Shown: positions 19,572 through 63,392 of the stretch, piece by piece
How the letters are laid out: every line of letters begins with the position of its first letter
Position numbering within the stretch: position 1 is the first letter of the stretch
Assembly: GCA_025141675.1 (NCBI GenBank)
Contig: CP081161.1
Location: forward strand, 1,090,001-1,154,000
DNA length: 64,000 nt
From: Rhodobacteraceae bacterium S2214
GTDB taxonomy: Bacteria > Pseudomonadota > Alphaproteobacteria > Rhodobacterales > Rhodobacteraceae
Direction: 5' to 3'
Position numbers and translations under genes: made by a program
The notes under the pieces: model-generated
Seen by the model: the letters and a program-made list of their open reading frames with translations, nothing else
Told to the model about the DNA's origin: nothing
The model's database searches: none

Positions 19572-19793
19572 ATGATTGATCTTGAACGGCATGACGCAAT
19601 TCGCAGAAGGCTGCGCGCGCTTGGCGTTAATTTCACTGATATCGCAAATTCTGTCGGTTGTGTTCCAAGTCTTGTGACCATGGTTTGCCAGGGTCACAGG
19701 TCAAATGTTGCTATTGAAACGGAAATAGCGGCTCGATTGAACGATGTTCCATCAAACCTATGGCCTCATAGATACGAGGAGGAAACCAAATGA
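19572..19793 (+). CDS. Ner-like HTH regulator of Tn7-like module 1
   Basis: A 73-residue DNA-binding protein of the Ner/Nlp type: the helix-turn-helix RRLRALGVNFTDIANSVGC followed by the recognition helix region, ending in NLWPHRYE. Similar proteins control early transcription in Mu-like phages. The ATG at 19572 gives the compact length typical of the family; the frame is open upstream to 19479. It heads the tns genes, and an equivalent gene heads module 2 with the same closing LWP-R pattern, so it probably represses transposase expression. Confidence 0.65.
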   Translation: MIDLERHDAIRRRLRALGVNFTDIANSVGCVPSLVTMVCQGHRSNVAIETEIAARLNDVPSNLWPHRYEEETK

Positions 19794-19813
19794 AGATTTA
19801 ACCCCAAAAACGA

Positions 19814-19967
19814 GAAACGGCCAAGGCCGGTTTCCCAGTCAAGGCCGCTTCGTATCATTTGGATCTGATACGTAAGCTTCTCCTTTCGACTGTTCAATGT
19901 CAAGTCAGAACGCCCTTTGGGGCGCTCAATTCCTTTGTCTCAATAAATGGAGAAGCGCCCTTGGGCG
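19814..19967 (+). promoter_or_regulatory. Hairpin-rich leader between Ner-like gene and tnsA
   Basis: Four strong inverted repeats follow one another: GAAACGGCC/GGCCGGTTTC (19814-19834), GCTTCGTATCA/TGATACG-T-AAGC (19847-19877, one bulge), CGCCC/GGGCG (19911-19924) and CGCCC/GGGCG (19956-19967). No protein is visible apart from a three-codon ATG-AAG-ATT-TAA that overlaps the regulator stop. The equivalent place in module 2 is also hairpin-rich. It could be an attenuator, a terminator array, or a structured RNA. Confidence 0.45.
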
Positions 19968-19979
19968 ATCGGTGAAGTT

Positions 19980-20693
19980 ATGCCGGTCGTCAGGGCCAAC
20001 ACAAACATGAATTATTCATCTAACCGTACGTTTCGCAGGGCTCTTGCGAGCCGTTCCAATCGCCGGATCAACCCACGTGGCCGCAGTGGTCGTGGCGCAA
20101 TTGTCTGCAGGTTGCCGAACTGGCAGTTTGATCGCCGTGTCATATTCGAGAGCATTCTAGAAATGCACGTGCTGCTTTTATTGCTCGCACGGCGCGACAC
20201 CATAGACCTTTGGGAGCAGCGCGGGCCCATCAGATATACTGATGCGCATGACGCGACGCGCCACACCTACTTTGACTTTGTGGTCAAACTGGCATGCGGC
20301 AAAATGCTCGCCATTGCTGTGAAGCCTGCAGCGATTGTTGAAGAACATGGCTTTCGGCAGGAGCTGGAGCTGATCAAGGCGGCAACTCCTTTGAGCTTTG
20401 CCGATGACGTCGTGTTGGTGACAGATCGCTCGTTCACACCTGCAGAGGCCAGAAACGCGCAACGGTTGCACGAGTTTCGTAGGTATCCAGATGTCGAGGC
20501 CGACGCGGCAATTGCGTCTTTGTTGGCTGATCTCGATACACCTACGACGATTGCTGATCTGGTGCAGAAGTCAGGACTTGATGGGCGAGGCTTTCGAGCT
20601 GCGTTTCGCGCTCTGTTCACCGGACAAGCCAAGGTCTTGAACGTAGGCGATATCACCCCGCAGACGATGATCACCGCGGAGGTGGCGTCATGA
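19980..20693 (+). CDS. tnsA: TnsA-like endonuclease, module 1
   Basis: A 237-residue TnsA-type nuclease, which cuts the 5' ends of a Tn7-like element so that it moves by cut-and-paste. The PD-(D/E)XK core is visible as FESILE (Glu at about residue 57), YFDFVV (Asp at about 99) and AIAVKP (Lys at about 114). The C-terminal half (SFADDVVLVTDRSFT onwards) should contact TnsC. The start is uncertain (19947, 19980 or 20007 are all in frame). The stop overlaps the tnsB start as ATGA. Confidence 0.8.
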   Translation: MPVVRANTNMNYSSNRTFRRALASRSNRRINPRGRSGRGAIVCRLPNWQFDRRVIFESILEMHVLLLLLARRDTIDLWEQRGPIRYTDAHDATRHTYFDFVVKLACGKMLAIAVKPAAIVEEHGFRQELELIKAATPLSFADDVVLVTDRSFTPAEARNAQRLHEFRRYPDVEADAAIASLLADLDTPTTIADLVQKSGLDGRGFRAAFRALFTGQAKVLNVGDITPQTMITAEVAS

Positions 20694-22909
20694 GAGTACG
20701 CTTTGATCCGAGTGACGCGTTTGAGTTGGCGGCTGTGCTCTATATGATCACGTTACAGTCCAAAGATGGGATTGTCCTGCAGCAGGTCGATAACGCGGAC
20801 ATCACGCTGTCCTTTAGCCATGACGAGGTCACGGCTCTCCTAAAGGATCCGACGACGCGACTGCGACGGGGATTCTTTTCCAAGCATCGCGCAGTGTCGC
20901 GTCTGCATACTAGTCAAAAGTACCTTGCGACAGCAAAGCCGAAAGCGCGCTCAGACGCTTTGTGGCGCGAGGTTTGGGTTCAGGTTACTTCAGCTTCGGT
21001 ACATGCCAAGGAAATCAATCGGACTGAGACATCGATTACCCAGTTCATGCCGGTGCTGCGCCAACGGGTGAATGCCATTTGCGTTGATGCGCAGTACCTG
21101 GGGTCATCAGGGCAAGCTGGTAGGAAAGCAACCATCCGCAAAGCGCCATGTGCGAAAACATTATTGAATTGGCTACGTCGCTATGAACGCGCGGGCGGAT
21201 GTCCGTTATCGCTGATGAACAAGCAGCGCTGCGAGACGACCTACGTTAGGCGATTTGGCACGGAGGTCATGAAGGTCCTCAACGCGTGCCTGTGGGAGTT
21301 TCTATCGCTGGGCAAGCCGACACCCGCAAAGATCGTCCGCGATACCCAAGATCACTTCAAGGAGCTGAATGCGGAACGCGCAACCGACGGCCTGCCTGAT
21401 CTCGTCATTCCATCGGCCTCGGACATCAAGCGCCGCGCGTCTCAACTCAAAAAGTTCCAGTGTAAAGTCGGGCGTTACGGCAAAAGTGCCGCTGTGCGTG
21501 ACATGAGCATCTATCAAGAGGGCTTGAAGATCTTTCATCCTTTGCAATGGGTGGAAATGGATGAATGGAAGATCGATGTCTATTCGCTGCTGGATGAAGC
21601 GGGATGCCTTGATGGCCTGAGTGAGCAACAAAAAGCGACCTACAAAGTTGGCCGCAGATGGCTGTGTCTCGCGATTGATGTGGCGACACGGTGCGTCGTT
21701 GGTATGCGGCTTGCGCAGAGGCCGACGCCGGCTGACGCGATCAGCACGCTTTCTTTGATCACAATGGATAAGACTCCGCTTGCGCAGGCAGCAGGGTGTG
21801 AGTCTGGTTGGGGATTTTTTGGTGGTTGCGGCACCGTTTCTACGGACATGGGGCCCGCGTTCATCGCCGATGAGTACCGTGTTGCAGTCGCGGACTTGCG
21901 TTTTACGCAGTCGGCTCCGGCTGCAGGCGTCCCCAAACTTCGCGGGCATGTCGAGCGCATTTTTGGGACCTTCGCATCACAGTTGATGGTAGAACTCACA
22001 GGGCGCAGTTTTTCGAACTCTAAGGAACGCGGGGACTACCCGGGTGAAGACTTGGCTGCTGTGACAGACGATGATCTCGTTCGGCTGTTCACACGGTTTG
22101 TCGTCGATATCTATCATAACGTGCCACATGCGGGATTGGATGATGAAACACCTGCCAATGCATGGAAGCGGCTTGCCAAGGAGCAAGGCGTGACAGCGAC
22201 GCCAGATGCGACAACACTGTGTTCCGTGTTCGGGATTGCATTGCAGCGCAAGATTGATCGCCACGGTGTGCTAGCGCATGGCATTCACTACCTGTCCCCC
22301 GAGATCGAGCAGGCCTATTCCGACGGCGCCCGATCCAAAGTGGAGATCCGCGTCGACCCGCACGACCTGACCTTTATTACCGTGTATTTGGATGGGGAAT
22401 GGTATCCAGCTCACGCGGTATCAGACAGTGTCTGGGGGCTTTCGCTTGTCGAGTGGACCGAGATTTGCCGCAATTTACGTCTCAAACATAAGAAGGAGGC
22501 GCAGCTATCTGAAGATGTCGTGCGGCGTGCGCGCAAAGCCATTCGCGCAATCAACGCCGATGCGATGGCGCTGCGGCGCCTGAAACCAATGACATTGACG
22601 ACGGAAGAGTTGGAGCGTGCAGAGCGTGAGTTGTTCATGTCGCTCTCGATCAAGCCTTCCAAGCATGTGCCGCCGGTCAAAGATGCGCCCGAAGGGCTTG
22701 GGCTGTTGGGCGATGTGATTGATCCATCAGGGTCTGACAGTGTGGATCAGGGTCACGATGATCAAACAGATTTGCCCGTCGACGCGCCTGATCCGGGATC
22801 GGAGCGGGAGCCGCAATCGGACAATAATCCGCAAGAAACCAAGCCAAGCGACGATGAAAACGAGCCCCAGAAGGGTCGCTCAGGCGGATTTGGGTTCCGC
22901 CATGACTGA
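20690..22909 (+). CDS. tnsB: TnsB-like DDE transposase, module 1
   Basis: A 739-residue transposase of the TnsB/MuA (rve integrase core) type that binds the element ends and joins 3' ends to target DNA. The DDE residues are in VEMDEWKID (Asp about 290), STDMGPAF (Asp about 386) and HVERIFGTF (Glu about 422). The Mu-type beta-barrel follows, and a Pro/Asp-rich acidic tail (about 660-739) probably contacts TnsC. It overlaps tnsA by 4 and tnsC by 8 bases. Confidence 0.9.
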   Translation: MRVRFDPSDAFELAAVLYMITLQSKDGIVLQQVDNADITLSFSHDEVTALLKDPTTRLRRGFFSKHRAVSRLHTSQKYLATAKPKARSDALWREVWVQVTSASVHAKEINRTETSITQFMPVLRQRVNAICVDAQYLGSSGQAGRKATIRKAPCAKTLLNWLRRYERAGGCPLSLMNKQRCETTYVRRFGTEVMKVLNACLWEFLSLGKPTPAKIVRDTQDHFKELNAERATDGLPDLVIPSASDIKRRASQLKKFQCKVGRYGKSAAVRDMSIYQEGLKIFHPLQWVEMDEWKIDVYSLLDEAGCLDGLSEQQKATYKVGRRWLCLAIDVATRCVVGMRLAQRPTPADAISTLSLITMDKTPLAQAAGCESGWGFFGGCGTVSTDMGPAFIADEYRVAVADLRFTQSAPAAGVPKLRGHVERIFGTFASQLMVELTGRSFSNSKERGDYPGEDLAAVTDDDLVRLFTRFVVDIYHNVPHAGLDDETPANAWKRLAKEQGVTATPDATTLCSVFGIALQRKIDRHGVLAHGIHYLSPEIEQAYSDGARSKVEIRVDPHDLTFITVYLDGEWYPAHAVSDSVWGLSLVEWTEICRNLRLKHKKEAQLSEDVVRRARKAIRAINADAMALRRLKPMTLTTEELERAERELFMSLSIKPSKHVPPVKDAPEGLGLLGDVIDPSGSDSVDQGHDDQTDLPVDAPDPGSEREPQSDNNPQETKPSDDENEPQKGRSGGFGFRHD

Positions 22910-23855
22910 TGATCGCATTGCTGACCAAATTGTCAGGCTCGGTATGATCTTTGCCGAGCACCCTGCCTACGCGCCCCTGGAGAAGAAGTTCTTTGACCTT
23001 GTGTCCTTGCGGCGCGCGCAGCTGGCGGCGGGGATCGCACCCGAAGTCGAAGGTATCGTTGTCACCGGCCCCCCTGGGGCCGGCAAATCGATGGCGGTGC
23101 AAGAATTGCTGCGGTCGTTCCGAGAAGGAGATGATGGCGGCGATGATGGTAACATCTGCGAGGCGCTGAGTTGTTTGGTGCCATCTCCTGCCACCGAGAA
23201 GTCGGTTGGTATCACCTGTTTGAGGTCCCTTGGATACAAACTTGAGCGGGACCGCCCGGCCCATATTATCTGGGACATGGTGCGCGATAATCTGCGAGAT
23301 CGCCAAACGCTCTTTGTGCACTTTGATGAGGCGCAGCATCTTTGCGAAAAACAAACCCCGCGTGAAATCCAATCGGTGATCAGCACCCTGAAATCCTTGT
23401 TGCAGAACCCCGGATGGCCTGTTGGTCTCATCTTGTCGGGCACGCCGCTGCTGAAGGACATGATCAATCAAGACGCGCAATTGACGCGGCGATTGTATCC
23501 GATCGAGTTGAAAGCGCTGAACGCACTGCAGGACATTGATGCCATTATCGGAACCCTTCGCTTTTATGTGGGCAAGGCCGGTTTAGACGTGTGCCCTGAT
23601 AGTCTTTCGGCTGAATTTGTGGCGCGCTTGGTCCACGCGGCCTGCGGTGAATTTGGCCTTCTGATCAAGTTCATCATCTTGGCAATTGAACAGGCACTGA
23701 GGCAGGGGAAGACCGCGGTTGGGCCTGCGCAGTTCCAATCAGCCTATGCGGACAAGTCAGGCTGCATGGACGGCATGAACCCGTTTATCGCGGTGGACTT
23801 CGAGCGGATTGATTGCAGCAAGCTTTATGGGGAGGGCGACACCTATGGCATTTGA
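22902..23855 (+). CDS. tnsC: TnsC-like AAA+ ATPase, module 1
   Basis: A 317-residue AAA+ regulator that links target choice by TniQ to the transposase. The Walker A GPPGAGKS lies at about residue 55 and Walker B LFVHFDEAQH at about 141; sensor-type SGTPLL follows. The ATG at 22902 overlaps the end of tnsB by 8 bases, exactly as in module 2, which fixes the start. It is shorter than Tn7 TnsC and closer in size to the TniB/TnsC of smaller Tn7-like elements. Confidence 0.88.
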   Translation: MTDDRIADQIVRLGMIFAEHPAYAPLEKKFFDLVSLRRAQLAAGIAPEVEGIVVTGPPGAGKSMAVQELLRSFREGDDGGDDGNICEALSCLVPSPATEKSVGITCLRSLGYKLERDRPAHIIWDMVRDNLRDRQTLFVHFDEAQHLCEKQTPREIQSVISTLKSLLQNPGWPVGLILSGTPLLKDMINQDAQLTRRLYPIELKALNALQDIDAIIGTLRFYVGKAGLDVCPDSLSAEFVARLVHAACGEFGLLIKFIILAIEQALRQGKTAVGPAQFQSAYADKSGCMDGMNPFIAVDFERIDCSKLYGEGDTYGI

Positions 23856-25752
23856 ACCTCGTATCAGTTTCCCGCTCAAACGGTTCGAAACAGCGACGTC
23901 TTATGTGTCGCGCCTAGCGCGGTTTTTCCACGTGGAGACGCCGCACGACTTTTGTCTCGATCATGGTTTCCGGTGGCAAGACGTTGTGCGGGGCGATGAT
24001 GTTCTCCTTGAACGCGTCGCGCGCATCGGCGGGGCCTGTTCCGCTGATCTGAAACATTGGGCTGTTCGCAGTACTGCGTCTCATCGGTTTGTGGTGGCAG
24101 GGCAGGAGGGCACTAAGAGCTCGCTCATTCGCACGCGGCTGCGAGTGTGCCCGCAATGCCTTGTTGCGGATCGGATCGCTGATTGGCGGCATGGTGCATA
24201 CCGTCGGCACTTTTGGCAGTTCGCAGCAATGCGGGCTTGCGATAAGCATCATTGCCCGATCATCACTTTGCCGCACGAGCGCTATACGATCCACAACTAT
24301 GACTTTGCAGGTCAAGTCGAAAGGCATTGGGATCTCATTGCGGGTGCAGCAAGCGATTGCGCACACCAGTCTGCAACTGACCTTGAGGCCTATGTGATGT
24401 CCCGCCTGATGGGGAAGCCGTGCAATCCGTTTTTGGACGCTATGCCGATGCACATCGCCACGCGATTGTCTGAGGTATTGGGCTTTGTGCTGTTGTTCGG
24501 GTCGAAACGTTTGATCTCGAGTGCGTCGGAGGCTGAACTGGCAGAAGCGGGGCAGGCGGGTTTTGACGCACTGCAGACGGGCGAGGAGGGGCTTTGCAAG
24601 GCTTTGGAAAGTCTGGTGGCGCCAGAGGCTTTGCGCACGGTGCACCACAAATCCGATCTGGGAGCATTATTTGAATGGCTCAGGACGTCCGCGCTGGGGG
24701 AAGCGTTTGAGCCCCTGAAAAACATCGTGCGCGACTTCATTTTCCGCAGCTATCCGATCCAAGAAGGTCAAACTGTTTTGGGGAAGGCTTGCACATCCCG
24801 CGAGAAATACACGGTACACACTGCCTGGCAGACACTGGGCATGCAGCGCAATCGCATGAACAGGGTCCTTCTGTCAGGCGGGCAGGCCCAGCTTGATGAT
24901 GAGGACAAATCCATAAGGCTTCATGCCGCCCTGGATGTCACAGACGTCGCCCGTATTGCGGCGCAAATGGAGGGGCGTCTGACGGCGCAACAAGCGAGCG
25001 CGCGTTTAGCTGTCAGCACCGAGGTTCTGCAGCAGTTCAGGGAACGATCAATTTTGACGCCAATCATCGACGCGTTGGATCTCATTCCAAAGTACGAACA
25101 AGCGGACATCGACCGGCTGCTCGCGCGGCTGTCACATCGCGTGACTGTGCGAGGTGCGTCTCATGCAAAGCTTGTCCCGATCACGGAGGCATCGCAGCGC
25201 GTCCGGTGTCCCAGCGCTGATATCGTCTCGTTCATTCTGGACGGACACCTGCAGACCATCGGGCACGATAGCGCAAAAGATGGGCTGTCAGGCTTCCGTA
25301 TTTGCATTGGGGAATTGCGGTCACTGCTGCCAGTGCCTGAGCTGCCGGGACTGCCCAAGGGGGATGCCGCACGCGCGCTGCGTGTAACATATCCCACGAT
25401 CAAACATCTCGTCGATCACGGACTGCTGAGTGAGGAGCGCGCGATGAACCCAAAGTCGCGTCAGCCCATCACGGTCATCACGTTTGAAAGCATCACAGCA
25501 TTCAGCGCGAAATACGTCACGCTCGGCGAATTGGCCAAAGAGTACCGCCGCACAGCCGGGCCTTTAGGGTGTCATCTCGAAGCCAAAGGCATTTGCCCCA
25601 TCGAGACGCCGCTGAAGATCAGTTGGTACTATGAACGTCATGGATTACGTGCGCGGTTGGCCGCGATTGGGTTGAAGGCTCCGGTTGATCGGCGCCAAAG
25701 GCGACAGAACACTGATCGCCAGACCCAAGAACATCGGGAGGCAAGGCTTTGA
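23845..25752 (+). CDS. tniQ: TniQ/TnsD-like target-selection protein, module 1
   Basis: A 635-residue TniQ-family protein, long enough to be TnsD-like (TniQ domain plus a sequence-specific DNA-binding part) rather than a short Cas-linked TniQ. The zinc-ribbon region RVCPQCLVADR...WRHGAYRRHFW...ACDKHHCPI sits at about residues 105-150. The C-terminal two thirds contain repeated helical segments. Such proteins usually guide insertion into one chromosomal site. It overlaps tnsC by 11 bases and closes the module. The target site cannot be read from the sequence. Confidence 0.82.
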   Translation: MAFEPRISFPLKRFETATSYVSRLARFFHVETPHDFCLDHGFRWQDVVRGDDVLLERVARIGGACSADLKHWAVRSTASHRFVVAGQEGTKSSLIRTRLRVCPQCLVADRIADWRHGAYRRHFWQFAAMRACDKHHCPIITLPHERYTIHNYDFAGQVERHWDLIAGAASDCAHQSATDLEAYVMSRLMGKPCNPFLDAMPMHIATRLSEVLGFVLLFGSKRLISSASEAELAEAGQAGFDALQTGEEGLCKALESLVAPEALRTVHHKSDLGALFEWLRTSALGEAFEPLKNIVRDFIFRSYPIQEGQTVLGKACTSREKYTVHTAWQTLGMQRNRMNRVLLSGGQAQLDDEDKSIRLHAALDVTDVARIAAQMEGRLTAQQASARLAVSTEVLQQFRERSILTPIIDALDLIPKYEQADIDRLLARLSHRVTVRGASHAKLVPITEASQRVRCPSADIVSFILDGHLQTIGHDSAKDGLSGFRICIGELRSLLPVPELPGLPKGDAARALRVTYPTIKHLVDHGLLSEERAMNPKSRQPITVITFESITAFSAKYVTLGELAKEYRRTAGPLGCHLEAKGICPIETPLKISWYYERHGLRARLAAIGLKAPVDRRQRRQNTDRQTQEHREARL

Positions 25753-26789
25753 TTGTGAAAACTACGCAATTGCAACCGGATCCGAGATGATGGCACTCTG
25801 CGATCTCCAGCAAAACATGTCGTAGTCCGACTTTACGACGACGGAGATCTCGTCACACAGCTACTAAAAACGAAAACCCGCGAGGACCTTACGGCTGTCG
25901 CGGGCATCTAAGAAATTGGAAGACTCAAAGTTGCCTTCTACTGCGCTCCGGATAGGGTCCGCTGTACCAGTTGTCAACAAAACAGACTATGACTATTTGG
26001 TAGGACTTTGTGCTGGTGTCCGCCATGGGGATGGTTGCAGTTCGTCTGGTAACTTTTGTACTTCCTGCAGCGCTGTCTTAATCAAATGATCGGTTAAGTT
26101 GCATTATCGTTCTTGGTATATGCCCAGTCAGTCTCGAAAAAGAATGAGATACTATGGAAGGATCAGGTCGCCATGTGCGCCGCTTTTTCCTGCTCCTAAA
26201 CTGGTAATACGCATCTGAAAGAACTTGGAGCTAAGCAACCATATTCTTCTGTAGGTGTGCTTTAACTTAAAAGTGGTCGGTCCTTCTGAAAGAACCAGAC
26301 CACTTTTATATCACTGATTTACAACCCAATGACGGGATACTCATAACTTCGAGAAACAAGGCAACAGAACTGGTAACCGAAAACCATTCACTCAAGACAG
26401 ACTAATACCGAACTCGGTACGACCGCTCGTATACATGCGCCGATCAACCGTGAGGAGATGTCCTTTAGTACAGGCACAGATAAGTTGCACAAATCGGCAC
26501 GATACAGTGAGGTTGCGATCGGACTATTGAGGATAGGCACTGTTAAATAGCTGGGAACGTTAAGGGAAACAGCTGGTGAATGAATTCGGCTGGAGTCTTA
26601 AACACTGGGAATCCTCAAAAGTGGCTAAAAAGAGTTAATGCTGAAAGCTCTCCGAGCGGAACCCTAGCAGTACTCAACTGAATATTCGGTCCGATATGCT
26701 TTGATTTGCTATGGTTCGCCCTATATGTGCCCAATCCCCGGCTCCACTTATGGTTGAGCGGGAGCCTTACCAAAGAGAAGGAGTGCTCA
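25753..26789. other. Long non-coding stretch behind module 1
   Basis: About 1 kb with stops in all frames and no recognisable protein. It contains a CCCGCGA/TCGCGGG hairpin at 25878-25906, which on the minus strand is followed by T-rich sequence, and a strong terminator-like hairpin at 26269-26307. Base composition is lower in GC than the tns genes. It may hold degenerate element DNA. Confidence 0.5.
26269..26307. terminator. Bidirectional terminator-like hairpin
   Basis: AAAAGTGGTC (26269-26278) and GACCACTTTT (26298-26307) form a perfect 10 bp stem, extended inwards by GGTCCTT/AAGAACC with one mismatch. A-tract and T-tract flank the stem, so it can end transcripts from both sides. It lies in the gap behind tniQ. 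Confidence 0.6.
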
Positions 26790-27275
26790 GTGAATACGAT
26801 AGTAAACGATATTGAGGTTGCAGACGGTGGGCGGGTCGAAGGCACAGTTAAGTGGTTCGATTGTATAAAGGGTTACGGATTCATCTGCGTGCCCGGCGTG
26901 CAAGGAGATATCTTACTGCATTTGAATGTTCTTCTTCAGGTCAATAGATCATCGATCAGTGAAGGGGCAACCGTACTATGCAAGGTATCAGGTGAAGCGG
27001 GGCGTCTTCGGGCAACCGAGGTTTATGGGGTCCACCCAGTGGAACAGTTTGAACAATCCACTTTGACGTTTCAACCGGCGCGCGTGAGATGGTTCTCGAA
27101 GTCCAAAGGTTACGGTTTCGCAGTCGTTTTTGGAACGACCGAAGATATCTTCGTAGGGCAAGAGTCCATGAAGTCGTCAGGTTTCGGATCACTGGAGGCG
27201 GGTGAAGCGATCTCAATTGTTGTGGAACGAAGAAAAGACGGTTTGGCAGCAGTCAAAGTCGCAGCATGGCAATAA
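26790..27275 (+). CDS. Double cold-shock-domain protein (GTG start)
   Basis: A 161-residue protein of two cold-shock domains. CSD1 (about residues 15-80) has GTVKWFDCIKGYGFI and CSD2 (about 95-160) has ARVRWFSKSKGYGFAVV; both keep the RNP1-type KGYGF core but deviate in RNP2 (GDILLHLNVL and EDIFVGQESM instead of the usual DVFVH). The GTG at 26790 follows AGAAGGAG with a 7-base gap, which decides the start. Such two-domain proteins bind single-stranded nucleic acid. It stands alone, about 1 kb behind tniQ, and may be cargo. Confidence 0.8.
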   Translation: MNTIVNDIEVADGGRVEGTVKWFDCIKGYGFICVPGVQGDILLHLNVLLQVNRSSISEGATVLCKVSGEAGRLRATEVYGVHPVEQFEQSTLTFQPARVRWFSKSKGYGFAVVFGTTEDIFVGQESMKSSGFGSLEAGEAISIVVERRKDGLAAVKVAAWQ

Positions 27276-27811: not shown

Positions 27812-28225
27812 TTACTCTTGCAGGCCATCTCCAAAGCCATCCTTCATCAAAGCGTCCAACATGGGGCAAGCCGCAGTGCCATCTTCGCAGTTCTTTGAAA
27901 GGCTCAAGAGCGCGTCTCGGAGGCGCACTAAGTTCTCAATCTTGGCGGTGATCTCACCCAGATGGTTCTCAGCCATTGCTTTCACCTCGCCACAGGATCG
28001 GTCGCTCTGCTCGGTCAGAGATAGAAAGGTCTGAATAATCGAGATCGGGAAGCCCAAATCGCGACACCGGCGCACGAACCTGAGTTTGGCGATTTCATCG
28101 GATGAGTATAGCCGACGTCCACCTGCGGAACGCCCCGGCTTCGGAACAACACCTTCTCGTTCATAGTATCGGATCGTTTCGATGTTGACGCCGCTTTGTT
28201 CCGACGCTTTGCCGATGGTGAACAT
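27812..28225 (-). CDS. merR: MerR-type mercury-responsive regulator
   Basis: A 137-residue MerR-family activator. The N-terminal winged helix starts MFTIGKASEQSGVNIETIRY. Three cysteines match the Hg(II) ligands of MerR: one in DRSCGEV at about residue 80, and two in KNCEDGTAACPML near 115-125. It is divergent from merT and faces a 19-base-spacer promoter with a dyad, the hallmark of MerR control. The start at 28225 gives the standard N terminus. Confidence 0.85.
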   Translation of the reverse strand: MFTIGKASEQSGVNIETIRYYEREGVVPKPGRSAGGRRLYSSDEIAKLRFVRRCRDLGFPISIIQTFLSLTEQSDRSCGEVKAMAENHLGEITAKIENLVRLRDALLSLSKNCEDGTAACPMLDALMKDGFGDGLQE

Positions 28226-28230
28226 TTCGC

Positions 28231-55096: not shown

Positions 55097-55966
55097 ATGG
55101 GGGATTTGGCTGCCTTTGTCGGGATCGTGGATGACGGCGGCTTTGCTGAATCCGCGCGGCGCAGGGGCGTGTCTGCCTCGACCCTCAGCCGATCAATCAC
55201 GCGACTGGAAGAGCAATTGAAGGTTACGTTGCTCAGGCGCACGACGCGGTCTATCGAGATCACCCCCGAAGGGGCAGCCGTTCTGGCCCAGGCGCGCGAG
55301 ATTTTGGACCGCAGCGAAGCCCTGCAAGAAATCGCGACCAGCGGGCAGGCTCCCGCCGGCCCTCTGCGTGTAAATGCGCCGGTTCCTTATGTCCTGCATA
55401 TTCTTGCCCCGCGACTGGCCGAGTTCCACGCAAAATACCCGGACATTCAGCTGTCGATCGATATGACGGATACGCTGGTGGATCTGATCGGAAGCCACGC
55501 AGATGTTGCCATCAGACTGGGTCAGCTGCCGGACAGCGACATGTTGCACCGGCCTTTGGGGCGCACCGCTTGGAAATTGGTGGCTGCGCCGGAGTATCTC
55601 GATTGCAAAGGCTGGCCTGAAACACCCGCTGACCTCGCACGGCTGGAACAAGTGCGCTTCGCGGCACCCGATCATATCAACACATTGCGTTTTACAGGAC
55701 TAGCCGAGCCAGTAACGGTGCCTACCGCCCTGACTTCGGGCAACGGAGAGGCCGTCCGCCAGTTGGTATTAGGCGGTCTGGGCATCGCCCGCTTCTCCGA
55801 TTTTATGATCGCAGACGATATACGCGCAGGGCGCTTGGTTGAGCTGTTCGCCGGACAGCTTTCAGCGGACCCGCTGAATATCTCAGCGCTCTACCTCACC
55901 CGCGTCTCGGGCCTGCGCCGGTTGGGTGTTTTTCTGGATTGGTTGGGGACCGTTGCTCGATGTTAA
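55097..55966 (+). CDS. LysR-family regulator
   Basis: A 289-residue LysR-type regulator with an N-terminal winged helix (GFAESARRRGVSASTLSRSITRLEEQL) and a C-terminal effector-binding domain. The ATG at 55097 gives the usual short lead before the helix-turn-helix; the frame is open to 55004, which would place the start inside the divergent promoter region. The MFS gene is the obvious target. Confidence 0.85.
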   Translation: MGDLAAFVGIVDDGGFAESARRRGVSASTLSRSITRLEEQLKVTLLRRTTRSIEITPEGAAVLAQAREILDRSEALQEIATSGQAPAGPLRVNAPVPYVLHILAPRLAEFHAKYPDIQLSIDMTDTLVDLIGSHADVAIRLGQLPDSDMLHRPLGRTAWKLVAAPEYLDCKGWPETPADLARLEQVRFAAPDHINTLRFTGLAEPVTVPTALTSGNGEAVRQLVLGGLGIARFSDFMIADDIRAGRLVELFAGQLSADPLNISALYLTRVSGLRRLGVFLDWLGTVARC

Positions 55967-56236
55967 GTCAAGCGTGCGCCTTTCATCACGTATAACGCGT
56001 CCGAGCAAAGCGTGGCCTCCAAAAGGAGGCCCTACCAAGCATATATGGACATATTTTTGGATGTCGGCTTTCTGGAAGCTGCACTGCAGCAGCGCGCCGC
56101 CATGTGAACGGCTTGTAAGGGCCGAAAAGACCCTTTTTTCCGTCTGGTGTCGCGTTGCGCCACTGTAGGTGTTGCTGATTAGGTCGGGAAAGTAAGTTGG
56201 AATTGGTCACATGTAATACTTACGACATTTCTCTTT
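55967..56236. other. Gap between the LysR gene and module 2 region
   Basis: A 270-base stretch with a GGCCTCC-AAAA-GGAGGCC hairpin (56014-56031) and a terminator (56117-56139). The left edge of the second Tn7-like element may lie here or just upstream of 57118; no terminal repeat could be identified. Confidence 0.45.
56117..56139 (+). terminator. Terminator behind the LysR gene
   Basis: A short AAGGG/CCCTT stem (56117-56121 with 56131-56135) runs directly into TTTTTT. Polarity fits the plus-strand LysR transcript. Confidence 0.5.
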
Positions 56237-56842
56237 TCAAAGGTCTCTCTTGTTGTCGCTAAGCCCTTCTAAACTGGCTGGCAAATGTCGTCGCACTGTC
56301 TTGGTACTAACACCGAGCCGATCTGCCGTTTTTCCCAAGTCGGATCCTTCTTCACGATAGACCTCGAGCAAGGCGGTTTGTGTAAGGCATAACTTGCCGT
56401 TACGATCAACGATCTCGACGCCAGATTGCCGTAGCCATTTCCTTATCTTTTCGTGCCCCACTCCGTGCAGGGCGGCCAATTTGTTTGTACTTGGAATTGC
56501 TTCATATTGATCGCTTAACATTTTTCCGAAATCAAAACCTGCAAGCATGCAGTGTTTGATTACGCGAGACCCTGTCATCCCACCCAAAAGCCCACCAACA
56601 AATACCGCAGAGCGCTCGATCTCCATATTATAAGCAATAATGATAGACGGCCATGCTACATCGTGCACCTGAGTTTCTACCCCGCTGAGGTAATCTGGTT
56701 CCCTTCCGAAAAACTCGTGAAACATTCTAATCGAACAGCCCAACATCAATTCATCAGGGATGGTCAAGGATGCCCGTCCACGGCGCGTCCGATTCCCCAT
56801 CCTGAAGATCATGACGTCTCGAAGGTCGGGTCGTTTCACCAT
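56237..56842 (-). CDS. HTH protein divergent from module 2
   Basis: A 201-residue protein with two helix-turn-helix-like units: KLAALHGVGHEKIRKWLRQSG (about residues 121-141) and DLGKTADRLGVSTKTVRRHL (about 168-187), and an N-terminal half of unknown fold. The ATG at 56842 has AAGGAA upstream. It is divergent from module 2, and its promoter carries the dyad at 56889-56904. It is probably a regulator; it has no counterpart beside module 1. Confidence 0.6.
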   Translation of the reverse strand: MVKRPDLRDVMIFRMGNRTRRGRASLTIPDELMLGCSIRMFHEFFGREPDYLSGVETQVHDVAWPSIIIAYNMEIERSAVFVGGLLGGMTGSRVIKHCMLAGFDFGKMLSDQYEAIPSTNKLAALHGVGHEKIRKWLRQSGVEIVDRNGKLCLTQTALLEVYREEGSDLGKTADRLGVSTKTVRRHLPASLEGLSDNKRDL

Positions 56843-56888
56843 GTAGATTCGTTCCTTCAGAGACAGGGTAAGAAGCCATCTCCGAATT

Positions 56889-56904
56889 TCACAAATATAT
56901 GTGA
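56889..56904. promoter_or_regulatory. Dyad TCACA-N6-TGTGA
   Basis: TCACA (56889-56893) and TGTGA (56900-56904) with an AT-only centre lie 47 bases upstream of the divergent HTH gene. The core TTCACAAAT recurs in the module 1 inverted repeat (19425-19437). It is a candidate operator for the HTH gene, the Ner-like gene, or the element's own end. Confidence 0.4.
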
Positions 56905-57117
56905 CAAAAATCCAGTACTTTCGAGTGCGAACCGGAGAACAGGGACATATGCGCTCAAAATTCAATTCGAACGTACCCGATCGGGTAACGATTTTTCAGA
57001 TTCAAGCGCAAATGTCCTTAATGCATTGAATTATATTAATTTATTGACCTTCGTTTCACTCAGTCTTACGAATTGACCCCATTGTATCGCCAAAGCCATT
57101 GAGGAGCTCAGAGTTAG

Positions 57118-57417
57118 TTGGACTTGCTTACCGAACTTAAACAGCAATTCGACGCTACCAAGCACCTGGATCAGCTTCGATTGGAGCGCCACGAATTTAT
57201 CAAAGCCCAACTTCGCATTAGGCAAACCAGCCTTGCCGAGACGGGGCGTTTGTTGGGCATAAAGACCGGAACGATGTCCGCTATCTCGCAAGGCATTGGT
57301 AAATCCGAGCGCGTTCAGCGAAAGCTTGCGGAAATCTTGGATATCCCGCCGTCTACATTGTGGCCTGAACGCTTCGAAAAACAAAACGAGGAGAAAACCA
57401 ATGACCTAGAAAAGTAA
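57118..57417 (+). CDS. Ner-like HTH regulator of Tn7-like module 2
   Basis: A 99-residue DNA-binding protein with a helix-turn-helix at about residues 36-60 (SLAETGRLLGIKTGTMSAISQG) and the same closing pattern as module 1 (TLWPERFE). The only start in range is a TTG at 57118, about 11 bases behind GAGGAG; a shorter product is possible. It heads the second tns row and probably represses it. Confidence 0.6.
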   Translation: MDLLTELKQQFDATKHLDQLRLERHEFIKAQLRIRQTSLAETGRLLGIKTGTMSAISQGIGKSERVQRKLAEILDIPPSTLWPERFEKQNEEKTNDLEK

Positions 57418-57419
57418 AA

Positions 57420-57544
57420 ACCTCCGAAAGCGCGTGCGCTTTAGAAGGTCTTTGGGTGTAGTAGATTGGACTCCCTACACCTCTTTCATTCCACAGAATC
57501 CGGAACCGGTCAAGCGCGCAGATGCTTTCTGCGTGGCGGTTCCG
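57420..57544 (+). promoter_or_regulatory. Hairpin-rich leader of module 2
   Basis: Three structures follow the Ner-like stop: a 14-base arm pair with two mismatches (57420-57449), GGTGTAG/CTACACC (57455-57481), and a nested stem CGGAACCG/CGGTTCCG (57501-57544) around CGCAG/CTGCG. The position matches the hairpins at 19814-19967 of module 1. Sequences differ, but the layout is shared. Confidence 0.45.
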
Positions 57545-57569
57545 TTCATCCAATTTTTGAAGGAGAGCC

Positions 57570-58413
57570 ATGACGTGGTCAGGGGTGAGCCCGGCTGCGC
57601 ATGCAAATGCTATGACAGACAACACAGAACCTCTTGAACCAAATTCATCCTTGAGCGGAGCAACCACGCCGCCACCACATTCGAAGCCAACGGACCTCCA
57701 GGCCGCGATACTGAACGATAACTTGGCCGTCTTGGATGACATCAGAGACCTGCCGCCGCTGCCCAGCCAAGCAACGCGCCGGATTGGGAAGCGTAAAAAA
57801 ATCAGTTCCCGAGGCGGCGTCCTCGTACAATTGTCCAGTTGGAAAAGGCCGAGAGTTGTCTACTTTGAAAGCAAGCTGGAACAGCGTGTTCTGTTTGTGC
57901 TTCTGGCGCGGGGCGATGTCATCGATCTTTGGGAACAACCTCCTTTGGTCCGGTACTTTGATGACGAGGGGCAGCCAAAACACCACTTCATCGATTTTTA
58001 CATCGTTCTTGAGTCCGGCAGGCGGATCGCGATCGTCGTCAAACCCGCCAAAATCGCGGCGCGCGCAAAGTTCATGCGGGAGTTGCAGAACATTCGCACG
58101 GCAATCCGAAAGAGTTTTTGCCGATGATCTGGTGTTGATCACAGACCAAGATTTTACGCGGGATGAGGCGCTGAATGCAGAGCGGTACCATGATTTTTCA
58201 CGCCATCGTTGTCCTGCGACGTTCGATCAACTGCGCGCACTTGTTTCGACAACTTCGTTCCCGACGACAATGGGGGATTTAGTGCGAGCTTTGGATGCCG
58301 GCGGCGGCGGTTTCGGAGCGATCTTCATCGCAATCTACGAGGGCCTACTGACCGCAGACCGCACGTCAAAAATTGATGCAGATACATCGATCCTCAAGGG
58401 GGCTGCACAATGA
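57570..58413 (+). pseudogene. tnsA: TnsA-like endonuclease, module 2, frameshifted
   Basis: The frame from 57570 (behind AAGGAGAG) encodes the nuclease core: YFESKLEQ, FIDFYIVL and IAIVVKP. It stops at 58125-58127 after IRKSF. The +1 frame continues as ADDLVLITDQDFTRDEALN to 58413 and overlaps tnsB as ATGA. Module 1 has SFADDVVLVTDRSF here, so one T in the run 58115-58119 appears extra. The nuclease residues lie before the shift; the lost part is the C-terminal domain that should contact TnsC. Slippage on five T is unlikely to restore much product. Confidence 0.75.
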
Positions 58414-60563
58414 GCCAATTGACGCACTACACAACATTTGATCGCTTGACGGTTGAGCCGCGGAAGTACCAATGCGTGGCGGTCACAGGCATCGGTGCCA
58501 CGTATGAGAGCACGGATACGCCGGTTGCGACGCTGTTCCTCACCTTCGAGGAGCTGCGTCAAAAGCTCAAGCAGCCTGATGTGTTGCTCGAACGGGACTA
58601 TTTTCTTACCGGAGCCAGTGAGACCCGCGAACTTGCCAACACCGACATTATTGGCGCACTACCTCTGAAGGTGCAGACAGAAGTAGTTTGGCGCTACGCA
58701 TATGTCAGCCCGCTTTTGCAGTTCTTTGCACTCGGGCGCGCGAAACGCACGGAATTCCATGTCAACGCGGTCCTTGAGGAGATTGAAAGGCTTGTAAACA
58801 AGCAAGCCAAAGCGGTGCAAGGCGGCTGGACATCAAAGCGGGCAGGCAAAGAGAAGGTGTACCGAGATGCGCCTTGTGCCAGTACGGTTTTAGAGTGGGT
58901 GCGCCGCTTTGAGGCTGCAGGCAATTCACCTCTTTGCCTTGTTCCGCGAACGCATCTCTCTGGCAATCGTAATCCGCGCTTCAGCCTTGTCGAATTGCGC
59001 ATGCTGGGAGAAGCCATCGGTAGTTATTTAACACGCAAGCGGAGGTCAAAACGTCAGGTCGCAGCCGATTGTAAAGCCAGCTTTGATGCGAAGAATAAGC
59101 AGTTTGAGCAAGATGGCCTGCCGTTGCTTCAAGTCCCCTCGAAACCAATGGTTGAGCGGGAAATCGCGAAGCTTGATCCCTACACAACCTACGCTGCGCG
59201 ACATGGAATTGAAGCTGCCAATCGAAAGTTCCTTTTGTATGAGGAAGGCATCGACGCTGCTTATCCGATGGAACGAGTGGAAATCGACGAGTGGCAGGTT
59301 GATCTGATATCAATCTTGGCACAGCGCGGGGCCTTGGCAGGGCTTTCTCCGCAACAGCTTGCCGCGCTGCCACGGGGGCGACGGTGGCTGTACCTTGCGA
59401 TCGATTGCGCAACGCGCTGCGTGGTGGGCATGAGATTGGCGGTCACGCCTAACTCGGAAGATGCCATTGCGCTTTTAGCCGATGCAACCCGCGATAAGAG
59501 CGATTTGGCTGCTGCAGCCGGATGTAGGTCGGAATGGGGACACTACGGCGGGCTTAAAACTGTTCCGTCAGACCTCGGATCAGCTTTTGTCGATGACCGT
59601 TTTCGTACTGCGATCTTCGATGCATCTGGCCTTCCGGAAACTCCACCTGGTGGGTTACCGCATCTGCGGTCGCGTGTTGAGCGGATATTCGGGACGTTCG
59701 GTACGAACCTGATGCCCGGCCTCGCGGGGCCGACATTTTTTAATCCAAAAGAAAGGGGTGACTATCCGTCTGTGGAAACGGCCGCGATTACAGATGATAC
59801 CTTAATACAGATGCTGATCCTGTACGTGGTGGACGTCTATCATAACCGGCCCCATCGGGGTCTCAAGGGAGAAACACCCAATAACTGCTGGAAGAGGCTG
59901 GCCGCAGAAAAAGGCGTCGTTCCTGATCTCCCAGAACGGATCCGGCGTCGCGCTTTCGGCAAGAGTCTCACGCGTAAAGTGAGCGGCAAAGGGGTGGAGG
60001 TCTTCGATATCCACTACACTTGTGCGGCCCTGCGGCGTTTTCACCTTCATAGCCATGAAGAAGACGTCGAGATCAAAGTTGATCTCAACGACATCGGCTG
60101 GATCATGGTGCGTGTTGATGACGCTTGGTACCCGGCAAGGGCAATTCAGAAGTGCTTCGACGGTGTTTCCTACGATGACTGGAAAGAAACGTCACGCCAG
60201 CTTGCGATGAAGTATCGCGATCAGGCGACCATCCACGAAAGCACGGTTGCTGAGGCGCTTGCCAAGATCGTCGCGTTGAATGCGGCAGACGAGCACACCT
60301 TCGGCGCGCAGCTACGCGCGGTGACACCTTACGGCCTGCGGCGCGGCATGGATGATTTGCATCTTGGTTTGGCCATCGAGCCAGATGATCCGGAGCGTTT
60401 TGATCTCCCGCCCGATGACGACCTTTTTGGGCACGTGGTCCCATTGCCGCAGTCAGACAGCGGTGGGGGAGGTGCGACTTTTGAAGCCGAAGACACCCGC
60501 AACTTAGAAACTGATATGAGCGACATTGACCGCGCTTCCACATGGAGCTTTGACAATGACTGA
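58410..60563 (+). CDS. tnsB: TnsB-like DDE transposase, module 2
   Basis: A 717-residue TnsB/MuA-type transposase, clearly a paralogue of module 1. The DDE residues are in VEIDEWQVDL (Asp about 293), PSDLGSAF (Asp about 388) and RVERIFGTF (Glu about 424), with the same spacing as module 1. An acidic tail follows. It overlaps tnsA by 4 and tnsC by 8 bases. Confidence 0.9.
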   Translation: MSQLTHYTTFDRLTVEPRKYQCVAVTGIGATYESTDTPVATLFLTFEELRQKLKQPDVLLERDYFLTGASETRELANTDIIGALPLKVQTEVVWRYAYVSPLLQFFALGRAKRTEFHVNAVLEEIERLVNKQAKAVQGGWTSKRAGKEKVYRDAPCASTVLEWVRRFEAAGNSPLCLVPRTHLSGNRNPRFSLVELRMLGEAIGSYLTRKRRSKRQVAADCKASFDAKNKQFEQDGLPLLQVPSKPMVEREIAKLDPYTTYAARHGIEAANRKFLLYEEGIDAAYPMERVEIDEWQVDLISILAQRGALAGLSPQQLAALPRGRRWLYLAIDCATRCVVGMRLAVTPNSEDAIALLADATRDKSDLAAAAGCRSEWGHYGGLKTVPSDLGSAFVDDRFRTAIFDASGLPETPPGGLPHLRSRVERIFGTFGTNLMPGLAGPTFFNPKERGDYPSVETAAITDDTLIQMLILYVVDVYHNRPHRGLKGETPNNCWKRLAAEKGVVPDLPERIRRRAFGKSLTRKVSGKGVEVFDIHYTCAALRRFHLHSHEEDVEIKVDLNDIGWIMVRVDDAWYPARAIQKCFDGVSYDDWKETSRQLAMKYRDQATIHESTVAEALAKIVALNAADEHTFGAQLRAVTPYGLRRGMDDLHLGLAIEPDDPERFDLPPDDDLFGHVVPLPQSDSGGGGATFEAEDTRNLETDMSDIDRASTWSFDND

Positions 60564-61521
60564 TCTTAACAACATTCACTTCAAGATCGCAAAACTGCGG
60601 GCAGAATTCATCAAGAGTGAGCCTTATGATCGGCTTTGGGACCAATTTGATCGCCAAATTCAGCGCAGGAGGGCAAATCTATCCCTTGGTCTGTATGGTG
60701 AAGCGCGGGGGCTGGCGGTCGTCGGCGCCCCCGGTAGCGGCAAGTCGACCTTGGTGAACCGGCTTTTAACCCAGTATCCCGATTTGTCACAACCCCAACC
60801 TGAACAGATGAAGGCTGAACTTATCAGTCTTCTGGTGCCATCACCCGCGACATTGAAATATGTTGGCTCCGCCATGTTGGGAGGGCTTGGGTATCCCCTG
60901 ACGCGGGACAAGCCCGCAGGGTTTATCTGGGATCAAGTGCGGGATCTTTTGCACAAGCGGGAGACATTGTTTGTTCATCTTGACGAGGCCCAAGACCTCT
61001 TTTCGACCAAAAATCTGAACACGCGAGGCGATGTCGTCAATACGCTCAAATCTCTGATGAACAACCGCGTCTGGCCTGTTGGACTGATCCTATCCGGTAC
61101 CCCCAAGATGCTGGAAATGATCAATTCCGATGATCAACTGAAGCGACGCATCGATATGATCAATCTTGATACGGTCTCTTGGAGCACGCATGGCACAGAA
61201 GTCCGAGAGACATTCTTGGCGTATGCCGCCAAGGCGGGGTTGAGCATTTGCCCAAAGCTGCAGCTCAACGACTTTTTATCACGACTGGTCCACGCAGGTT
61301 GTAATGAGCTGGGGCTGATCATCGAAATGATCCTCAGCGGCATCGAAAACGCGCTACTTGCCCAGAGTGATGCGCTTCGCATTGATCACTTTGTGGATGC
61401 GTTCCAGCGCAAATCAGGGTGCAGCAGAGGTCTAAATATCTTTGTTGTCTCAGATTATCTGGCAATCGACCCTCGCGCGGTGATGCGCAAAGCTAACCAT
61501 CCGGGAGGGGGCGACCGATGA
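60556..61521 (+). CDS. tnsC: TnsC-like AAA+ ATPase, module 2
   Basis: A 321-residue AAA+ protein with Walker A GAPGSGKS (about residue 56) and Walker B LFVHLDEAQD (about 142), then SGTPKML. The ATG at 60556 overlaps tnsB by 8 bases, the same as in module 1, which fixes the start. It should activate TnsB once TniQ has marked a site. It overlaps tniQ as ATGA. Confidence 0.88.
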   Translation: MTDLNNIHFKIAKLRAEFIKSEPYDRLWDQFDRQIQRRRANLSLGLYGEARGLAVVGAPGSGKSTLVNRLLTQYPDLSQPQPEQMKAELISLLVPSPATLKYVGSAMLGGLGYPLTRDKPAGFIWDQVRDLLHKRETLFVHLDEAQDLFSTKNLNTRGDVVNTLKSLMNNRVWPVGLILSGTPKMLEMINSDDQLKRRIDMINLDTVSWSTHGTEVRETFLAYAAKAGLSICPKLQLNDFLSRLVHAGCNELGLIIEMILSGIENALLAQSDALRIDHFVDAFQRKSGCSRGLNIFVVSDYLAIDPRAVMRKANHPGGGDR

Positions 61522-63392
61522 GCATTCAGCACACGTTATCGTTCCCCATTCAACAGTTTGAGACCGCGACATCTTATGTGTCGCGGCTCGCGCTCTGGTG
61601 CGGTTTGGGCAGCCCGTCTGATCTGTGTCTCGACTGGGGGTTTCGATGGCAGGATGTTGTTCGCGGCGACGATTTTGTTTTTGAGAGAATTGCGGTCACT
61701 GGCGGTGCACACGTTGGGGATCTCAAAAATTGGGCTGTATGTACGATTGCTCCGCATCATTTTAGGGTCGCGGGGCAGGAGGGTACCAAAACTTCACTCA
61801 TTAGGACCCGTTTGCGCGTGTGCCCGCGTTGTCTTGTTGAGGATCGCGACGCGGATTGGCGGCACGGAGCGTACCGCAGGCACTATTGGCAGTTCAGGGC
61901 GATGCGTGCATGTCACATCCACCAGTGCCCGATCATCACGTTGCCGCATGAACGTTACACGATCCAAAACTATGACTTTGCGGGATTGATTGAACGGCAC
62001 TGGCCACATGTTTTGCAAGCGGCTGACGCGGACACACAACGCAAATCGACTGAGTTGGAAGCTTACGTGATGTCACGTCTGCTGGGGCAGGTTGGTACGC
62101 CATTCCTCGACGCAATGCCAATGTATATAGCCACGCGGCTTTGCGAGGTTTTAGGCTTTGTGGTGTTGTTCGGGCCCAAACGTTTGATCTCAAGTGCAAC
62201 TGAGGCCCAACTGGCATTAGCGGGGCAGGCGGGTTTTGACGCTCTAAAAACGGGAGAGCAGGGGCTCAACGCTGCTCTGCAGGGTTTGGTTGCTCCTGCT
62301 GCACTGCGCACGATACATCATCAAGCTGACTTGGGTGCATTGTTTGAGTGGCTTCGTACGTCGAACTTAGGTGCACCGTTTGAGCCGCTCAAGGATATGG
62401 TGCGCGACTTCATCTTTAGAACCTATCCCATCCAAGAGGGCCACACCGTGTTGGGTAAGGCGTGTACGGCGCCTGCGCGTTATACCATCCACAGCGCCTG
62501 GCAATCACTTGGCATACAGCGCAAACGCATGAATCGTATCTTGATCGATGAAGGGTTGGCGTCACTCAACGCAGATGAAAATGCCGTCCGATTGGAAGGC
62601 GCCCTTGGGGTCGCGGATATTGCTCAAATTGCTGCGCGCATGCACGATCGACTCGTTCTTCAAGAGGTCTGTGATCTCTTGGCGATTGGTCCTGATATTG
62701 TGCACCAGCTACGAGACCGTGCGATTTTGACGCCGGTTACTGATGCGCTGGATCAGGTTCCAAAATATGAACGCACTGACGTGACCAAGGTTTTGGACCG
62801 CTTGTTGCTGCGTGTTACCGTGAAAGGAACCTCACATCGGCGTCTTGTGCCGATCTTTGATGCCGCAAGGCGGGTGAGATGCCCGAGTGCAGATATCATT
62901 CACCTGATCTTGGAAGGCAGACTTGCAAAGATCAGTCGGGATGAAAGCATTAGGGGCCTTGCTGGACTCGCGATTTGTCTGCGGGAGTTGCGACAAGTTT
63001 TGCCGCCGTTAGAAATGGCGGCCATCCCGAAAGGCGAGGCGTCGCGCTTATTGCGTGTCACGTATCCTACGATCAACTATCTGATCGATGAAGGCCATTT
63101 GACGTCACAGCGTGTCAGAAATCCAAAATCACGGCAGTTTATTGATGCGGTTTGCCAGGACAGCATCGCAGATTTTAGCAAGACCTACGAGACCCTTGGT
63201 GAATTGGCGCATCGATACAAACGCGCCTCTGGTCCTCTGGGCTGTCATCTCGAAGCGAAGGGCATTTGCCCCATTGAGACCCCGCCGAAAATCAGCTGGT
63301 ACTATGAGCGAAAGGGCTTGGAACTGGGCATTCAAAAGGCCGGTGTTACGCTCGCCGCGGAGACAAAGCGAGAAAGGCGTCAACATGCGTAG
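61518..63392 (+). CDS. tniQ: TniQ/TnsD-like target-selection protein, module 2
   Basis: A 624-residue protein, the closest pair of the two modules with the module 1 tniQ: long stretches such as QFETATSYVSRLA, DVVRGDD, GQEGTK-SLIRTRLRVCP and PHERYTI are shared. The zinc-ribbon region RVCPRCLVEDR...ACHIHQCPI is intact. Its likeness to the module 1 protein suggests related targets. It closes the module; about 430 bases without a gene follow. Confidence 0.82.
   Translation: MSIQHTLSFPIQQFETATSYVSRLALWCGLGSPSDLCLDWGFRWQDVVRGDDFVFERIAVTGGAHVGDLKNWAVCTIAPHHFRVAGQEGTKTSLIRTRLRVCPRCLVEDRDADWRHGAYRRHYWQFRAMRACHIHQCPIITLPHERYTIQNYDFAGLIERHWPHVLQAADADTQRKSTELEAYVMSRLLGQVGTPFLDAMPMYIATRLCEVLGFVVLFGPKRLISSATEAQLALAGQAGFDALKTGEQGLNAALQGLVAPAALRTIHHQADLGALFEWLRTSNLGAPFEPLKDMVRDFIFRTYPIQEGHTVLGKACTAPARYTIHSAWQSLGIQRKRMNRILIDEGLASLNADENAVRLEGALGVADIAQIAARMHDRLVLQEVCDLLAIGPDIVHQLRDRAILTPVTDALDQVPKYERTDVTKVLDRLLLRVTVKGTSHRRLVPIFDAARRVRCPSADIIHLILEGRLAKISRDESIRGLAGLAICLRELRQVLPPLEMAAIPKGEASRLLRVTYPTINYLIDEGHLTSQRVRNPKSRQFIDAVCQDSIADFSKTYETLGELAHRYKRASGPLGCHLEAKGICPIETPPKISWYYERKGLELGIQKAGVTLAAETKRERRQHA

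Follow-up and report, generated by a model that had tools for sequence, protein, structure and literature searches.

Stacked Tn7-like elements past a tRNA-Arg(ACG) gene in Rhodobacteraceae bacterium S2214, with apparent exchange of the target selector

Introduction

The present study asks how two related Tn7-like gene modules came to lie in one region of the genome of Rhodobacteraceae bacterium S2214. The window, i.e. the 64,000-nucleotide (nt) stretch of DNA whose letters were analyzed, holds both modules about 38 kb apart, each in the order helix-turn-helix (HTH), TnsA, TnsB, TnsC and TniQ, and a preliminary description proposed either a preferred insertion region or two insertions whose target immunity does not recognize the other. 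In Tn7 itself, TnsABC and TnsD insert at attTn7, past glmS, and among Tn7-like elements stacking, swapped target selectors and landing beside tRNA genes are known. The answer reached here is that the locus is very probably a stack of independent Tn7-like elements at a tRNA site, selector exchange included. Plain coordinates are window positions and C1 coordinates refer to the contig of the same genome (G000); the genus referred to is its GTDB genus, which also includes Roseobacter sp. CCS2 and Yoonia maritima (G005) and whose name we infer to be Yoonia.

Results

A complete Tn7-like element of 24 kb, beginning 11 base pairs (bp) past tRNA-Arg(ACG) and flanked by a 5-bp duplication, has module 1 as its core. 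Module 2 forms the core of an element farther out in this stack, and the two elements lie head to tail. The features that define the array are as follows.

13130..13206, + strand: tRNA-Arg(ACG), the common target gene (ARAGORN, Rfam)
13213..13217: ACTTT, 5-bp target duplication, copy 1
13218..37258, + strand: element 1, 24,041 bp, complete Tn7-like element with gamma-type ends (matching ends, exact duplication)
13218..13267, + strand: gamma right end of element 1, TGTCGAAAACC, with two 20-bp repeats
37226..37258, - strand: gamma left end of element 1
37259..37263: ACTTT, target duplication, copy 2
37264..37291, + strand: second gamma right end, beginning directly after duplication copy 2
37264..64000 and on to C1:1161435, + strand: element 2 as read here, with a gamma right end and a beta left end, holding module 2

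The sequence TGTCGAAAAC begins at 13218 and its inverted copy finishes at 37258, and the pattern common to both ends of element 1 occurs four times in the genome (at most 3 mismatches), always within this array. The exact duplication around element 1, with a further right end directly after it, bears out the idea of independent insertions, and the preferred insertion region turns out to be the 3′ flank of tRNA-Arg(ACG), a gene whose core pattern has a single occurrence in the genome. The span first given to the system, 19572..63392, was right for the positions of the modules and missed the target site, the ends and much of the cargo; that description also did not include the tRNA gene, the borders of the elements or the TniQ swap described below. 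Further out, a beta-family left end stops at C1:1161435, 7.4 kb outside the window. After it come CACTT and a single T, then at C1:1161442 the third gamma right end, beyond which the genes appear chromosomal. This left end fits module 2 because beta ends occur on elements whose TnsB is 62–65% identical to TnsB2 (CCS2, G336, G310). The three gamma right ends continue into a common stretch of 590–625 bp, 91–92% identical, and parts of this right-end block are also found in alpha and beta elements.

In many genomes, Tn7-type ends belonging to several families occupy this same tRNA flank. A histidine kinase gene near the tRNA has a strong match in 55 of 56 genus genomes, including the one under study, and the stretch past it was read in 48 of the 56 plus one further genome (G074). 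The tRNA was present in 47 of these 49 stretches, with at least 41 bases beyond it visible in 46; among the 46 readable genus genomes, 17 had a Tn7-type end 9–12 bp after the CCA of the tRNA and 29 had other sequence there. In genomes of the genus this tRNA is thus followed by other Tn7-type ends or by none, an outcome that favors the preliminary description. Kinase gene and tRNA also lie close together in CCS2, in a metagenome-assembled genome (MAG, G023) and in Yoonia maritima, all with related TniQs. When 10 alpha and 9 beta sites were compared, other genera included, mean identity was 41% and 47% in the spacers, against 92% and 91% over the first 44 bp of the ends; the element border is therefore sharp. 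In eight beta-type target sites the tRNA body was mostly invariant and the acceptor stem variable, although tRNA bodies are generally conserved anyhow. Searched alone against the genome contigs TniQ2 gave no match, and a five-row alignment gave seven loci. TrkH, which adjoins module 1, was considered as a target and rejected, as it is matched in only 12 of the 56 genus genomes (own included) and the right end lies at the tRNA.

Stacks were found repeatedly. A left end, a 5-bp duplication and the next right end abut in 4 of the 17 occupied genomes (the present one, G012, G063 and G077), the order being alpha then beta in G012, where beta starts 3 bases past the duplication, alpha then alpha in G063, and leading to a beta-like end in G077; five more listed hits of the junction scan had no right end behind them and were counted as chance. 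In G012 the tRNA is followed by two full modules separated by 43 kb. In Yoonia maritima a lone TniQ is left at the site, on the opposite strand, and five right-end-block matches in the 56 kb past the tRNA (G005:C9:850307-906251) suggest a longer stack. The TnsB nearest to that of module 1 lies at this tRNA in G077 (L106), where tnsB is split into two overlapping open reading frames (ORFs).

TnsB1 was matched at an E-value (E) of 1e-60 in 34 of 295 family genomes, and 12 of those 34, outside the genus, were followed. Six of the 12 have a TGT start 9–13 bp past tRNA-Arg(ACG), with ends of the beta family in G206, G336, G310 and G349; in G307 and G309 the ends fall outside the families defined here. 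The remainder comprise one past tRNA-Ala(GGC), two that are ambiguous and not claimed (tRNA-Pro(CGG) for G102, tRNA-Lys(TTT) for G327) and three without an adjacent tRNA (G081, G125 and G150, the contigs of G081 and G125 being 7.5 kb and 6.1 kb long). The tRNA-Ala case, G097 (L217:13217-13292), has its Tn7-type end 9 bp after the CCA, and its TniQ comes from another clade; other TniQ clades may therefore read other tRNA genes.

The genes of the two modules are listed below.

19479..19793, + strand: Ner-like HTH gene 1 as the listed ORF; the start may be 19572 (HTH_35)
19947..20693, + strand: tnsA1, 44% identity to the TnsA2 N-terminal piece; no Pfam match
20690..22909, + strand: tnsB1, gamma lineage (Mu-transpos_C; D-D-E motifs; tree)
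22902..23855, + strand: tnsC1, overlapping tnsB1 (TniB/AAA)
23845..25752, + strand: tniQ1, beta TniQ clade, apparently a replaced selector (Pfam TniQ; tree)
57118..57417, + strand: Ner-like HTH gene 2 (HTH_35)
57570..58413, + strand: tnsA2, split across two frames
58410..60563, + strand: tnsB2, beta lineage (Mu-transpos_C; D-D-E motifs; tree)
60556..61521, + strand: tnsC2 (TniB/AAA; likeness to VchTnsC)
61518..63392, + strand: tniQ2, beta TniQ clade, with a row of winged-HTH-like units in its C-terminal half

ORFs and Pfam matches (HTH_35, Mu-transpos_C, TniB/AAA as AAA_22, and TniQ in both modules) agree with the gene order, positions and spacing first proposed. Of the five genes proposed per module, four have Pfam support in both, and tnsA2 is not one open frame: it is frameshifted, with its N-terminal part in frame 57570-58127 and its C-terminal part in frame 57736-58413. 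No Pfam family or solved structure in the PDB matched TnsA1, which is identified by its 44% identity to the TnsA2 N-terminal piece; that piece scores 24.3 bits against Tn7_TnsA-like_N (PF08722), just below the cut-off of 26.5, and TnsA1 has FES-LE, DF and VKPA motifs that we take to be those of TnsA. The D, D and E motifs of TnsB1 and TnsB2 are likewise presumed assignments. TnsB2 matches the TnsB of Tn6677 (E 7e-28) and TnsC2 matches VchTnsC (E 2e-4). TniQ (PF06527) is above cut-off in both modules and its profile reaches TnsD (E 0.003); PF15978 (TnsD) matched nothing in the genome, and since 14 controls were equally without a match this is uninformative. The window contains no array of direct repeats of the kind in clustered regularly interspaced short palindromic repeats (CRISPR), as had been reported, and no Cas or TnsE family was found among the ORFs scanned, which were part of those in the window. 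The 8-base tnsB/tnsC overlap, ATGACTGA, is indeed identical in both modules, which is weak evidence because the 8 bases merely contain one start and one stop. A 16-bp inverted repeat (94%) at 19425-19469, directly ahead of HTH gene 1, is a possible operator of the Ner-like regulator.

Alignment of the paired proteins confirmed that the modules are related yet diverged and revealed an unevenness not reported before, with identities of 63% for TniQ, 43% for TnsC, 36% for TnsB and 28% for the HTH protein. TnsB and TniQ trees of 23 modules, with G077 outside them, were in conflict. TnsB1 clusters with G327, G102 and G307 (support 100/99) and TnsB2 with CCS2, Octadecabacter, a MAG and G336 (100/99), whereas TniQ1 and TniQ2 are sisters (100/99) within a clade of TniQs from beta cores (100/99). 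Approximately unbiased (AU) tests rejected a clade of TnsB1 with TnsB2 (p = 0.0012) and the placement of TniQ1 with the gamma group (p = 7e-56), both groupings having been named only after identities had been seen. Identity between tniQ1 and tniQ2 is about 70% at the DNA level along most of the gene. From these patterns, module 1 seems to carry a replaced target selector derived from the lineage of TniQ2. At the same tRNA, G077 combines a gamma core and a gamma TniQ, so the gamma core of element 1 would have a foreign selector for a site that its own lineage also uses. The second element of G012 has a beta TnsB, but its TniQ groups with that of the first G012 element and G309 (100/100), and on these groupings that stack is a second case of mismatch between TniQ and TnsB. 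A moderate AlphaFold2 model of TniQ2 (8 sequences; predicted local distance difference test 71, predicted template-modelling score 0.42) has repeated strand-HTH-strand units in the C-terminal half, where residues 375-434 and 442-499 are similar to winged helices of Xis and MerR type; these units may be what reads the tRNA gene.

A covarying structured element of about 160 nt, present in all three right-end blocks of the array, lies some 110–150 bp inside right ends and is common to alpha, beta and gamma elements.

13352..13513, + strand: structured element (RNA or single-stranded DNA), right-end copy 1
37377..37538, + strand: structured element, right-end copy 2
L026:7575-7736: structured element, further copy

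In 16 sequences 98.0% of cells were paired, compared with 40–46% when the structure was slid, a contrast favored by the fact that the structure was derived from the same 16 sequences. Double changes affected 16 of 50 pairs (8.7 in shuffles) and 57 cells (15.1 in shuffles), values reached by none of 500 shuffles. The structured element matched 27 of the 295 family genomes, own included, and of 36 places outside this genome 28 were viewed, 12 with an intact tRNA-Arg just upstream and 2 that also fit (one beside a half tRNA, one behind a left end). At one place (L262, G219:C2:60610) an alpha right end and structured element are preceded by only the 3′ half of tRNA-Arg. Among plasmids, 135 records matched, 15 over 80% of the length and many over only about 40 bases, and in those viewed the structured element lay beside DUF3560, zincin-like, DUF932/ParB and DUF3768 genes, among others; the carrying plasmids are conjugative and these neighbors antirestriction-type. 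A phage collection gave no structured-element match.

It is possible, albeit doubtful, that this is a working transposon part moved between lineages by recombination, either an RNA, which would be read through from the landing-site tRNA gene, or a single-stranded-DNA promoter, which would have come from conjugative plasmids and be used on single-strand arrival. Besides the origin of the structure noted above, several results count against such a role: further pair types were not above shuffles (28 versus 26.1, reached by 122 of 500), energy z-scores for the + strand were -2.1 (RNA) and -1.1 (DNA) and for the - strand -1.5 (RNA), and 14 of the 28 viewed places lay elsewhere. Against Rfam the window gave tRNA alone, and tRNA was also the only match of note in 13100-14000 at E up to 5. 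The model (E up to 0.01) also had no match in L106 (G077), L109 (G032), L034 (G023), L110 (G028), L061, L118 (G017) and L139 (G066), and because it misses these seven loci the structured element is dispensable for tRNA-Arg targeting. Frpo-type single-strand promoters occur in plasmid leading regions, and the plasmid copies resemble them in their gene neighbors, whereas the transposon copies differ in their place just inside a right end, where the corresponding side lacks genes of this kind.

Cargo was assigned from Pfam.

13905..19179: right-side cargo of element 1, HTH_3 protein, YqiJ, flotillin, TrkA, TrkH
26706..36895: left-side cargo of element 1, of mercury and copper type: cold-shock protein, MerR, MerF-like, cation efflux, DUF411, cytochrome c, CopC, CopD, MauE
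38895..52901: cargo of element 2, L-rhamnose-type catabolism (RhaA, aldolase/dehydrogenase, DeoR, sugar ABC transporter, FGGY kinase) with AraC, MipA and a hydrolase

A second TrkH, 80% identical to that of element 1, is encoded at G000:C1:3011905-3013224 (L057). PADLOC gave weak matches to mad1, a gene from the MADS defence candidate, at 29584-30072 and 56237-56965 (E 8e-11 and 7e-6).

Discussion

Patterns detected at this locus are consistent with a mechanism in which TniQ would use its row of winged-HTH units to recognize the tRNA gene and would recruit TnsC and TnsAB, with insertion just beyond the tRNA, which would be left whole. A newcomer would enter between the tRNA and an earlier element and displace the latter outward. 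Elements with unlike TnsB and ends would stack because TnsB-based immunity would not cross-recognize them, and the differing end families make it plausible that the immunity of one element did not recognize the other, as the preliminary description had suggested. Stacked neighbors may then recombine, swapping tniQ and right-end blocks.

Several observations weigh against this reconstruction. Tn7-type right ends were assigned by eye, and 13 of the 17 occupied genomes had no left-end junction, some because the stretch was short. Syntenic comparison did not yield a clean empty site in a near relative, since a common neighbor downstream of the tRNA was sought and none was found. The nearest relatives by kinase gene (G025 and G061) are without the tRNA at this position. 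The 37% difference between TniQ1 and TniQ2 makes the exchange old, with donor and direction not fixed. For element 2 no unambiguous right border was found, and the third right end has no recognizable left end up to window coordinate 140000.

Element 2 looks like a product of recombination between neighbors. Its left end and the right end at 37264 are of different families, which makes it a probable recombinant in which a crossover between right-end blocks joined a gamma right end to a beta interior and left end, and, with a broken tnsA and unlike ends, element 2 is probably immobile by itself. Alternatively the end at 37264 may be a relic of an element that lost its left end, the beta right end of module 2 having decayed; we consider this possible though somewhat unlikely. 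The third gamma right end is likewise without a left end, and relics are known in this genome: two further TniQ genes, each with an internal stop, lie at C1:1974845-1975756 (L029), about 4.5 kb past a tRNA-Pro(TGG), and at C1:3437531-3438724 (L028). The absence of any beta right end between 37264 and module 2 cuts both ways, as it leaves a single element from 37264 to C1:1161435 without a beta right end of its own and leaves decay without a trace, while the shared right-end block would supply the homology for a crossover.

Other explanations of the whole locus have less to recommend them. A single element duplicated in tandem long ago, its copies diverging in place, would account for the same gene order, the similar overlaps and the similarity of TniQ; this origin is scarcely credible given that the lineages of TnsB1 and TnsB2 are distinct and well supported, each protein having nearer relatives elsewhere and their joint clade being rejected by the AU test, that the left ends come from different families, and that element 1 has its own 5-bp duplication. 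Transposon ends exist, whereas a duplication without ends would have spoken against independent transposition. A tRNA-associated integrase island with the Tn7-like genes as passengers is also very improbable. tRNA 3′ ends are classic integrase sites, other sequence follows the tRNA in those 29 genomes, and an integrase-family ORF occurs at L026:3996-4670, but termini 9–12 bp past the tRNA are of Tn7 type, and left end, duplication and next right end abut. With independent insertion accepted, the resemblance of the two TniQs could still reflect ordinary descent, TniQ being slow or convergent through reading the same tRNA, and use of tRNA-Arg(ACG) by TniQs of several clades does point to a common constraint. 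We judge this improbable, because TniQ is not slower than TnsB in other pairs (CCS2 and G310: TnsB 67%, TniQ 48%), because the gamma relatives G077 and G307 retain gamma TniQ at the same tRNA, and because a gamma placement of TniQ1 was rejected and the DNA similarity covers most of tniQ.

Compared with known systems the elements are claimed as a variant only, comprising the tRNA-Arg array, a core with its neighbor's selector lineage and a structured right-end element. They resemble Tn7 in TnsB, TnsC and TniQ/TnsD-type proteins, TGT/ACA ends, a 5-bp duplication, fixed orientation and a safe site next to an essential gene, and differ in using a tRNA gene, in having a Ner-like HTH gene ahead of tnsA and tns genes mid-element with cargo on either side, and in showing no TnsE among the ORFs scanned. 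TnsB2 and TnsC2 have sequence kinship with CRISPR-associated Tn6677 (I-F3), whereas the window has no CRISPR-like array, the ORFs scanned include no Cas family, and the long TniQ has extra winged-HTH units. Exchange of selectors between cores and the tRNA-flank site are shared with other Tn7-like elements; unlike in those, the foreign TniQ has its sister in the adjoining element of the stack, and no guide RNA is visible.

The structured element links transposons with conjugative plasmids and has no Rfam family; if its proposed role were true, a Tn7-like element would thereby be tied either to its tRNA site or to conjugation. The stacks and the selector takeover show which parts of Tn7-like elements are exchangeable and amount to a natural experiment in choosing and sharing a safe site. 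If element 1 moved with its present, apparently foreign TniQ, TnsC1 must be able to work with that protein. Compatibility of TnsC with TniQ, immunity across lineages and protein-read targeting of tRNA genes thereby become directly testable, and such systems may permit CRISPR-free insertion at a safe site.

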